Positions 8,993 through 23,168 of a stretch of DNA of 64,000 nt are shown here, piece by piece. The number at the start of each line of letters is the position of its first letter. The first letter of the stretch is position 1. A program made the translations under genes and the position numbers. Below the pieces are notes generated by a model. It was given only the letters and a program-made list of their open reading frames with translations. It did not search any database and was not told where the DNA came from. Location: contig NZ_ML974130.1 in NCBI RefSeq assembly GCF_004143485.2, positions 170,917 through 234,916 on the forward strand, in the 5' to 3' direction. The stretch comes from Halorussus amylolyticus. Its GTDB lineage: Archaea > Halobacteriota > Halobacteria > Halobacteriales > Haladaptataceae.

Positions 8993-9183
8993 TCACGCCA
9001 GCGGCGTCCGCTCGACCACCTACCACGACCACCTTTTCCTGCACTCGCTCTCTCGCTTCGCTCGTTCGCTCGTTGGCAAAAGCTGGACCAAAAGCCGTCG
9101 CTCCTCCCGTTGGTCGTCGCTCGGCCGCTCGCTCACTGCGTTCGCTCGCAAAAGAATCAGGCCAGCGGCGTCCGCTCGACCAC
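8993..9183. mobile_element. Gene-end mini-element flanked by duplicated radical-SAM 3' end
   Basis: A 23-bp exact direct repeat (8997-9019 and 9161-9183) contains the last codons of the radical SAM gene. Including the stop codons it is 27 bp with one mismatch. Both copies translate on the minus strand as VVERTPLA-stop. The ~140 bp between them contains CCACCTTTTCCTG, CTTCGCTCGTTCGCTCG, AAAAGCTGGACCAAAAG and GGCCGCTCGCTCACTGCG, blocks that recur in the same order in the element at 22016-22304. Confidence 0.65.
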
Positions 9184-10149
9184 TTGCCCGTCGTAGGTCG
9201 GGTACTGCTCGACGATTTCGCCCGTCTCCACGTCGCCCTCCGCGACCATCTCTTCGAGGAGCCACCACGCGAGTTCGACGTGGTCGGACTTGACCGAGTA
9301 GAACTCCTCGGGGACGCCGAGTTTCCGGAGTCGCTGTTCGGTCTCCCACGTCTTGCCGTAGACGAGCGTGCCGTCGTCGGTCACTTCGTCGAACTCCCGG
9401 CGGATGTTCCGGGCCATCCGCTTCATCCGATTCCGGTGCTGTGCGGCGTCTTTGAAGACGGACGTGCAGAAGTACACCCGTTCGTGGTCGCCCATCGAAT
9501 CGAGAATCTCCTTCGACCCCTCGACCGCGCTCATGTGGCCGTCCTGGAGTTCGTAGCCCTTCTCCTGCATCCGCCGGAAGTTGCCGTCGCTCATCTCGAA
9601 CTCGTTGACGTTGCAGAACTCCGCCGCGCCCTCGTCCAGAAAGTCGAGGAACTCCTGTTCGGCCCGGATGCCCGGAATCTCGAACGCGGGGGTCAGGCCC
9701 TCCTCGCGGGCGATGTACAGAATCTCCTCCCACTCGGTGCCGTGCATCTCGCCCCACAGTTCGAGCGGCGGGTGGAACCGAATCTCGTCGAGTCCGGCCT
9801 CCGAGAGTCGGCGCATGTTCTCCCGGCCGCCCGTGATACCGGTGTAGAGGTGGGTGTGGTGGTCCTCGCCGAACTCGTCTTTGAGAAGCGAGAGGTATCG
9901 GCAGGTCTTCGCCATCGCCTCCTGGGGTTCACCGCCCGTGATGGAGGTTCCCAGCGCGTCCATGCGCTTGGCCTCGGTAATCACGTCCTCGTCGGACTCG
10001 ACCTTGCGCTCGTTTGCGTACACGTCAGTCACGTTCTTGCGGTTCTCGCCGAGCGGGCAGTAGAAGCAGTCCCGCTGGTCGCAGTAGCCGTAGACGAACA
10101 GCACCATCTTCCCCCCTTCGGCGCACTGTTCGCAGCCCTTCGAAATCAT
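9157..10149 (-). CDS. Radical SAM protein (pyruvate-formate-lyase-activase related)
   Basis: Iron-sulfur, S-adenosylmethionine-dependent radical enzyme of the archaeal group related to PFL activase (COG2108-like). The N-terminal cluster is C23-x4-C28-x2-C31 (YGYCDQRDCFYCPLGENRK), an offset from the usual Cx3Cx2C, with a further CEQC pair at residues 6-9. The SAM-binding GGE region is visible as SITGGEP. 330 aa with ATG start. The final eight codons are duplicated downstream at 8993-9019. Substrate unknown. Confidence 0.88.
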   Translation of the reverse strand: MISKGCEQCAEGGKMVLFVYGYCDQRDCFYCPLGENRKNVTDVYANERKVESDEDVITEAKRMDALGTSITGGEPQEAMAKTCRYLSLLKDEFGEDHHTHLYTGITGGRENMRRLSEAGLDEIRFHPPLELWGEMHGTEWEEILYIAREEGLTPAFEIPGIRAEQEFLDFLDEGAAEFCNVNEFEMSDGNFRRMQEKGYELQDGHMSAVEGSKEILDSMGDHERVYFCTSVFKDAAQHRNRMKRMARNIRREFDEVTDDGTLVYGKTWETEQRLRKLGVPEEFYSVKSDHVELAWWLLEEMVAEGDVETGEIVEQYPTYDGQVVERTPLA

Positions 10150-21530: not shown

Positions 21531-21992
21531 GTGTCAGGTCGCGCGCTCTCTCCGGTCCTCGGTGTCGTCTGCCTGCTCGTCGTAACCGCGGTTCTCGCGG
21601 GCGTCGTCGGGACGTTCGCGCTCGGAGTGACGCCGCCGTCGAATCCGCCTACGGCGGCGCTGGACTTGCGAATCGACGCCGACGCGAACGAACTCACGTT
21701 CGTTCACCGCGCGGGCGATTCGCTCGACGTGCGCGAGCTATCGCTTCGCGTTCGCATCGACGGCACCCCGCTCGATACGCAACCCCCGGTTCCGTTCTTC
21801 TCCGCGCGCGACTTCAAATCGGGACCGACGGGCCCGTTCAATACCGCGACGGATTCGACCTGGGAAGCGGGCGAGCGCGCGAGCTTCCGCGTGGCGGAGA
21901 CGAACGACCCCGCGCTCGCGCCGGGCGCGCACGTCACGGTAAAAATTGTCGTCGAGAACGCGGTCGTCGCGGAGGTGGACGAAACTGCGTGA
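21531..21992 (+). CDS. Type IV pilin-like protein
   Basis: 153 aa with a GTG start. The N-terminus GRALSPVLGVVCLLVVTAVL is the classic haloarchaeal prepilin motif: a basic residue, SPV and a hydrophobic helix. It is cleaved by the archaeal prepilin peptidase and assembled into adhesion pili. The remainder is a small beta-rich head. It is 27 bases downstream of the secreted coiled-coil gene, probably in one transcript. The distal copy of a duplicated methyltransferase 3' end begins 23 bases after its stop. Confidence 0.8.
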   Translation: MSGRALSPVLGVVCLLVVTAVLAGVVGTFALGVTPPSNPPTAALDLRIDADANELTFVHRAGDSLDVRELSLRVRIDGTPLDTQPPVPFFSARDFKSGPTGPFNTATDSTWEAGERASFRVAETNDPALAPGAHVTVKIVVENAVVAEVDETA

Positions 21993-22015: not shown

Positions 22016-22304
22016 TCGCTGTCTACTCCTCGGGGTCGCGCGCGACAGTGGTAATTGCGATATCGGGGTCGTACGACGGTCCCTATCCCACCTTTTTTCG
22101 TCGTCGGGTGTCCTCACGGCCTCACTTCGCTCGGCCGCTGTGGCACCGCTCCTCGAAAAAATCTGGACCAAAAAAGGCCGCTCGCTCACATTCGTTCGCT
22201 CGCGGTACGATAGCTGGTGCGCTCGCTCACATTCGTTCGCTCGCTGTCTACTCCTCGGGGTCGCTCGCGACAGTGGTAATTGCGATATCGGGGTCGTACG
22301 ACGG
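22016..22304. mobile_element. Gene-end mini-element flanked by duplicated methyltransferase 3' end
   Basis: A 64-bp direct repeat with one mismatch (22016-22079 and 22241-22304) covers the last ~19 codons and stop of the methyltransferase. On the minus strand the proximal copy ends VASDPEE-stop and the distal copy VARDPEE-stop. The ~160-bp interior contains CCACCTTTTTTCG, CTTCGCTCGGCCGC, AAAAATCTGGACCAAAAAAG and GGCCGCTCGCTCACATTCG, blocks shared in order with 8993-9183. A second copy of CGCTCGCTCACATTCGTTCG follows at 22220. Confidence 0.7.
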
Positions 22305-22871
22305 CCCCATCTCGCGGTGCTCGATATCGACGTACCCCGCCTCGCGGAACATCCGGTCGGCCTCCTCGCGGTCGTAGAACAGCATGATGGCGTCGGCGAG
22401 TTTCTGCATCACGGTGGACTTCGGGTAGTTCGGGCCGACGACCAACACCTTCCCGCCGGGTTTGACGACTCTGCGGAGGTCCCGGAGGGTGGCGACCGGG
22501 TCGGGCCAGTACTCGATGGACCCCGACGACCACACCACGTCGAAGGTGTCGTCCTTGAACGGGAGGCGCTCTGCGTCCCCGCGGTAGAAGCTCACGGGGT
22601 CGTGCTTGCCGAGTTTCGCCCACGCCTTTTCGAGCTGGTGGACGCTCTGGTCGAGTCCGTGGACGTTTTCGGTGTGTTCGAGCAGGCCTTCGGTGGCGAA
22701 GCCGGTGCCGCAGCCAACGTCGAGCACCCGGTCGTCCTCGTCGATGTCGAGCATCGCGAGCGCCTCGGTTCGCATCTCCTCGTTCCAGATGAAGGGGTTG
22801 ACGGTGTCGTACACCTTCGAGAGGTACTTGTAGAACAGCCGCGCCCGGCTCTTGTCTTCGAGGATACCCAT
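22248..22871 (-). CDS. Class I SAM-dependent methyltransferase (quinone-methyltransferase type)
   Basis: 207 aa from ATG 22871. Motif I is VLDVGCGTGFATEG (about residues 49-62). The post-motif acidic residue lies in VHGLDQSVHQLEKA, motif II is FDVVWSSGSIEYWPDP, and motif III is VVKPGGKVLVVGP. It resembles the UbiE/MPBQ-methyltransferase group, so a role in menaquinone methylation is plausible; that matches its position beside the ATP synthase operon but is inference. The ORF extends upstream only through low-quality codons. Its 3' end is duplicated 225 bp downstream. Confidence 0.85.
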   Translation of the reverse strand: MGILEDKSRARLFYKYLSKVYDTVNPFIWNEEMRTEALAMLDIDEDDRVLDVGCGTGFATEGLLEHTENVHGLDQSVHQLEKAWAKLGKHDPVSFYRGDAERLPFKDDTFDVVWSSGSIEYWPDPVATLRDLRRVVKPGGKVLVVGPNYPKSTVMQKLADAIMLFYDREEADRMFREAGYVDIEHREMGPSYDPDIAITTVASDPEE

Positions 22872-23078: not shown

Positions 23079-23107
23079 CGTCAGAGCTTTGCTCTGACGG
23101 TGTTTTT
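23079..23107 (+). terminator. Hairpin followed by T-run
   Basis: Perfect 9-bp stem CGTCAGAGC-TTT-GCTCTGACG followed by GTGTTTTT. It has the geometry of an intrinsic terminator, but no plus-strand gene precedes it within 1 kb. It may be part of a dispersed repeat that also includes the nested inverted repeat at 23112-23168. Confidence 0.4.
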
Positions 23108-23111
23108 CATC

Positions 23112-23168
23112 AACGTTTTGCCAGAGAAGGGTCCGCCAGCGGCTGACCCGGAGCGCAGCAAAAGGTTG
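23112..23168. repeat. Nested inverted repeat with AACGTTTTGC / GCAAAAGGTT ends
   Basis: The outer arms CAACGTTTTGC and GCAAAAGGTTG pair with one mismatch. The inner segment GGGTCCGCCAGCGGCTGACCC forms its own stem. The whole can fold as a ~57-nt cruciform just upstream of the ATP synthase promoter. Confidence 0.55.

Follow-up and report, generated by a model that had tools for sequence, protein, structure and literature searches.

The methyltransferase locus

Near 22 kb of the window (the whole 64-kb stretch of DNA analysed here), a gene for a class I SAM-dependent methyltransferase and a convergent gene resembling archaeal type IV pilins flank a segment in which the 3' end of the methyltransferase gene occurs twice (Table 1). 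The initial annotation had described a 64-bp repeat with its copies 225 bp apart, one keeping the gene intact and the other displaced. This description holds with slight extension: the direct repeat is 68 nt long (22016-22083 and 22241-22308), has two mismatches (66 of 68 positions identical) at a spacing of 225 bp, and the copy at 22241-22308 is the true 3' end, with the stop codon at 22248-22250. Hereafter, D2 denotes such a working end and D1 the displaced one; at this locus the likeness of D1 to D2 may reach about 22087. The interior between them is non-coding and rich in hairpins, of which there are three. Hairpin 1 is an imperfect palindrome with conserved ends, a variable centre and a T-tract followed by C on both strands, and the core AAAATCTGGACCAAAA is followed by two CGCTCGCTCAC...GCTCGC hairpins (hairpins 2 and 3).

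Table 1. Features of the methyltransferase locus and of the other family copies in the window
Feature	Positions	Strand	Details
Archaeal type IV pilin-like gene, left neighbour	21531-21992	+	Pilin_N, E 2.5e-15; convergent to methyltransferase gene
D1, displaced methyltransferase 3' end, Arg form	22016-22083	-	66/68 identical to 22241-22308
Hairpin 1 of the element, CCACCTTTTTTC ... GAAAAAATCTGG	22088-22166	+	From sequence, family alignment and folds
Conserved core AAAATCTGGACCAAAA (family form AAAANNTNGANNAAAA)	22158-22173	+	From pattern counts in own genome and 59 genomes
Hairpin 2 (GGCCGCTCGCTCACATTCGTTCGCTCGCGGT)	22176-22206	+	In other copies, sequence differs and self-complementarity is kept
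Hairpin 3 (GTGCGCTCGCTCACATTCGTTCGCTCGCTGT)	22217-22247	+	Direct repeat of hairpin 2; abuts stop codon; same layout elsewhere in family
D2, working methyltransferase 3' end, Ser form	22241-22308	-	Stop codon 22248-22250
Class I SAM-dependent methyltransferase gene (host), 207 aa	22248-22871	-	Methyltransf_11, E 1.3e-26; intact
Second site, D1, displaced 3' end of radical-SAM-type gene	8993-9019	-	26/27 identical to 9157-9183
Second element copy	9029-9152	+	Core 9078-9093; ACCTTTT edge at 9031; second hairpin ends near 9152
Second host gene, Radical_SAM-like (just under Pfam cut-off)	9157-10149	-	Working 3' end D2 at 9157-9183
Third family member, AAAACGTTGATGAAAA subtype	23103-23166	-	No duplicated end

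Orthologues of the methyltransferase are present in all 18 genomes of the genus, and the convergent pilin-like neighbour is kept at the locus in relatives of the genus. The element and the displaced end were found in two of the 18 genomes (this one and G008), and the other 16 are without both. As the core subtype and the junction differ between the two carriers, the event happened twice, independently. The spacing between the pilin-like gene and D1 is about 25 bp here and 0 in G008, and several element-less species have 29-50 bp between the pilin-like gene and the methyltransferase gene; given this likeness, D1 occupies the site of the original end. The amino acid difference between the two ends had been read as a Ser-to-Arg change in the displaced copy, but the direction is the reverse: Arg or Lys is found at this site in 17 of 17 relatives, and the displaced copy therefore has the ancestral Arg and the working copy a derived Ser. 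A simple tandem duplication of gene end and interior, named in the initial annotation as a competing account, was rejected at this locus because the sequence left of D1 is not interior and 16 relatives are without the element; some loci elsewhere in the family are arrays of element plus gene end (see below).

A dispersed element behind haloarchaeal genes

The interior blocks had been said to recur at a second gene end, and they do, near 9.03-9.15 kb, behind a radical-SAM-type gene. What had been missed is that this gene end is duplicated as well (8993-9019 versus 9157-9183, 26 of 27 positions identical). A scan of the 64-kb window for direct repeats of at least 24 nt at a spacing of 60-500 bp returned gene-end-type repeats at the methyltransferase and radical-SAM-type sites only. 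Its three other hits lie close together at 36.8-37.8 kb and perhaps belong to an internally repetitive gene. The third copy in the window has the methyltransferase gene on one side and a V-ATPase-G-like gene on the other; as these two are transcribed divergently, no terminator would be expected there.

The family has the layout ACCTTTT-hairpin-AAAA-NNTNGANN-AAAA, followed by one or two more hairpins. Hairpin centres vary from copy to copy with pairing kept, terminal inverted repeats are present (CCANNTTTTTTC ... GAAAAAANNTGG pair in most folds), and the right end is variable, lying 0-125 nt beyond the core and often coinciding with a stop codon. In this genome the core AAAANNTNGANNAAAA has 32 matches and its reversed pattern 0; over 59 genomes of the class the counts are 449 and 43, and the core was found in 28 of the 31 genera sampled. 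The ratio of 32 to 0, together with the 29 of 219 copies that have the same geometry of duplicated ends (see below), excludes chance as the explanation. An assembly artefact is unlikely, given 25 loci, some of them on multi-megabase contigs. No Rfam match at the gathering score was obtained in the window or at three family loci, and no description of such an element family was found in the open literature searched, subscription papers lying outside that search.

Within the genus, a copy is found behind the same genes in most species, and its subtype can differ. In most copies a stop codon immediately precedes the element, and each strand has a T-tract (TTTTTTC). Copies without a duplicated end begin within 10 bp of a left-hand stop codon in 54% of cases, compared with 5% in a shifted control, and the figure for copies with a duplication is 4%; at L227, L228, L229 and L245, the element follows apparent tRNA 3' ends, recognised by eye. 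In Haloferax, a terminator consists of a T-stretch that ends at C (PMC7237163). The presence of such tracts on both strands and the location just behind stop codons indicate that the element is probably a haloarchaeal 3'-end module working as a bidirectional transcription terminator. With the intrinsic terminators of Haloferax it shares TTTTTTC, present on both element strands, and a site just behind stop codons and tRNAs, but it is much longer and has a conserved core and variable hairpins common to many loci. Its conserved position behind the same genes in many species and its terminator features show that it is no random non-autonomous insert; what stands of the initial proposal is a recurrent small element tied to duplicated ends across haloarchaeal genera.

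Like REP/BIME palindromes and prokaryotic MITEs, the element is dispersed, short, non-coding, palindromic and intergenic. Unlike them, it is tied to duplicated gene ends and its orientation is fixed towards the gene with the duplicated end, and, short of an exhaustive search, neither a known REP transposase nor a known transposon family could be linked to it. By analogy, it may also be likened to integron attC sites, as an imperfect palindrome with conserved ends and a variable centre immediately behind a stop codon, although the present element stands behind housekeeping genes at conserved positions.

At one orthologous position behind the same gene (L183-L200), hairpin 1 and the core subtypes differ by species and the second hairpin looks orthologous, a pattern that we read as hairpin swapping or conversion. 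Separately, a conserved non-coding sequence, GGCTCAGCC..TTTC.GG.TAGTCGGACTGGCGG, adjoins the element at L008, L040, L062, L115 and L116, in different species; it may mark where an as yet uncharacterised non-coding RNA has its 3' end, and it had no Rfam match at the three loci scanned.

Duplicated gene ends across the family

The survey set comprised 219 copies with a recognisable left edge, and flank repeats were accepted at an alignment score of at least 34; when left and right flanks were paired across different loci as a control, the 99th percentile score was 29. At this cut-off, 32 of the 219 copies have a flank repeat, and in 29 of these 32 (25 loci, many genera) D1 ends precisely at the edge of the element, between -13 and +4 nt from ACCTTTT. 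The duplications are about 25-110 bp long, with 131 bp in one tandem array. The expectation that a duplicated gene end would accompany such loci is thus borne out in 29 of 219 copies (25 loci) and fails in most. Since about 85-90% of copies have no duplicated gene end, among them all of the approximately 29 CTGGACC-type copies of G017, the duplication cannot be a built-in property of the element, contrary to the initial annotation.

Wherever genes were assignable by eye, the gene whose end is duplicated is the one that lies on the core side. Names were given to the hosts from curated C-terminal sequences, on which the assignments rest because automatic assignment of open reading frames picks spurious GC-rich frames. 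Besides Spt5 and this methyltransferase, the hosts with duplicated ends include dihydroxy-acid dehydratase (L232, L271, L302), aminopeptidase-like (L118, L249, L251) and glutaredoxin-like (L259, L315, L316) genes, the PolD large subunit (L290) and ETF alpha (L260). These loci have a homologous anchor, the intact gene body, on one side and a novel, non-homologous junction at the element edge on the other.

At many single-unit loci, D1 and D2 are alike only as far as the stop codon, and D1 sometimes has a stop codon of another type, which is to be expected if element-less and element-bearing alleles, with their unrelated 3' flanks, were juxtaposed. At the remaining loci the likeness continues as far as the core, which would follow if the element was present in both partners or if the unit arose by tandem duplication. 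D1 and D2 are 94-100% identical at most loci, and the codon differences in near-identical loci (14 synonymous versus 11 nonsynonymous) do not show two selected alleles. Tandem arrays of element plus gene end, with units of 90-149 bp, are present at L118, L251, L256, L259, L271 and L302. An outer element is partly kept at L355, L289 and L118, and is whole at L256, where it stands beside the left stop codon. The orthologous aminopeptidase-like loci of G033 and G067 have a common junction, yet D1 resembles D2 within each genome, and homogenisation therefore blurs the history of these ends.

The junction is the same at L249 and L251, from two related species, with both ends alike in each genome, which points to concerted evolution of the two ends. 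The glutaredoxin-like loci L259, L315 and L316 (two genomes, two of the loci in G051) all have the junction linker AGGTCGCCC before the element; despite this common linker, each displaced end matches its own gene.

Orthologous loci with the same interior and no duplicated end, which the initial annotation took as speaking against its reading, do occur, at Spt5 of G008 and G010. Elsewhere at Spt5, G000 and G004 have the arrangement D1-element-D2, G001 has several stacked end relics, and within the genus the 3'UTR exists as two alleles, with and without the element. Both ends of Spt5 in G015 encode VPIPVTVRGDQIRVLDSEER*, yet 17 of 63 nt differ, all of them synonymous. D1 is 95% identical to the end in G005, and its downstream flank is of the element-less type of G003, G005 and G016; D2 is nearest to G014 and has an element-type 3'UTR as in G010. 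The working and displaced ends at this locus are clearly two different alleles. This is hard to square with a target-site duplication, since neutral decay thereafter should have cost D1 its peptide.

Possible origins of the displaced ends

The data suggest that gene ends were swapped in together with the element and that the old end was left as a fossil. The interior would then be one copy of a 3'-end terminator module, and the duplicated end the residue of gene-end replacement with displacement, a reading to which we give a probability of roughly 0.48, just short of even odds. An incoming allele comprising gene end and element, from another strain, species or chromosome copy, would recombine by homology inside the gene. 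At its other end, an illegitimate join would link the outer edge of hairpin 1 to the resident gene, a few dozen bases short of that gene's own stop codon. The result would be an unbroken gene that has taken over the incoming end and its terminator, with the old end pushed outward. Repeated rounds would give stacks of ends, and recombination between copies could give tandem arrays of element plus end and keep the copies similar. That the module terminates transcription and that the recombination is one-sided are steps that we infer, and a break at a cruciform, which would put the junction at the hairpin edge, is a guess. Gene conversion and interspecies recombination are described as frequent in haloarchaea (PMC8223754, PMC4500145), and conversion between chromosome copies and species would keep D1 and D2 similar. 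However, one-sided illegitimate recombination is rare in bacteria (PMC5361080), and duplication inside one genome explains the 94-100% identity of D1 and D2 equally well; our confidence goes no higher because the two ends are, at most loci, too alike to tell replacement from duplication within the genome. The replacement end envisaged in the initial annotation is supported by the two alleles at G015 Spt5.

The closest known process is C-terminal displacement at rhs/T6SS effector loci, which has been attributed to homology-facilitated illegitimate recombination (PMC5361080; for the rhs case, Jackson et al., 2009, cited there). In both, the gene body is constant, a new 3' end comes in, the old end is orphaned downstream and repeats stack, but here the genes have housekeeping roles, the two ends encode nearly the same peptide and a short hairpin element resembling a terminator marks the junctions. 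We would therefore regard the present case as a known process in altered form with a new dispersed element family attached; what is new is a class-wide haloarchaeal 3'-end element tied to recurrent gene-end displacement in housekeeping genes.

The displaced ends could arise in other ways. First, a MITE-like element (ends CCA-TTTTTTC and GAAAAAA-TGG) could insert at gene 3' ends and produce long, variable target-site duplications of about 25-110 bp, with the gene surviving. Such an element would account for the sharp left edge in 29 cases, the inverted-repeat ends, the lineage-specific gain at the methyltransferase, the near identity of D1 and D2 at most loci and the multicopy state, with about 29 CTGGACC-type copies in G017. 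We nevertheless consider it doubtful, as the duplications vary several-fold in length instead of being short and constant, they accompany only 29 of 219 copies and none of those in G017, the right end is variable and often is the stop codon, the position behind one gene is kept across most genomes, G015 Spt5 has two alleles, and no association with a transposase was seen.

Second, the hairpin could be a hot spot of breakage or slippage, with repair from the sister chromosome joining its outer edge into the neighbouring gene. Haloarchaea are polyploid. Local tandem duplication of this kind predicts repeats of element plus gene end in which the outermost element decays, and it agrees with the arrays of 90-149 bp units and with the partly or wholly kept outer elements. 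It is unlikely overall, for most single-unit loci have no outer element left, G015 Spt5 stays unexplained, and the methyltransferase element, with 16 of 18 species lacking it, had to arrive from elsewhere. Third, and quite improbable in our judgement, the element could go beyond passive termination and its hairpin be a programmed break-and-join site at gene ends, with haloarchaea systematically exchanging gene 3' ends and terminators through an unknown nuclease or recombinase (a 'gene-end cassette' system). Finally, a site-specific integrative element, such as a provirus or plasmid, could have brought in a replacement gene end and then been reduced to a scar by loss of its interior. Formally this would yield the arrangement seen in the window, in which an interior separates a new working end from the old, displaced one. 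It is very improbable, however: the loci number at least 25, are spread over many genes and genera and invariably have one short hairpin element in common, no long versions are present among 219 copies, and neither integrase remnants nor a common attachment sequence were seen.

If gene-end replacement with displacement is correct, the stacks are recombination fossils, and the exchange of gene ends between strains, along with its hot spots, becomes directly testable. Displaced ends would also account for short gene fragments in unexpected places, which automated annotation may call wrongly. Another short hairpin insert (ttcctcggaccacgcgaacggcg...) parts the working end from a short relic, GGACTCCGAAGAGCGG, at Spt5 3' ends (L165-L182), especially in G003, G005 and G016, and the stacking of ends may therefore extend beyond this element family.
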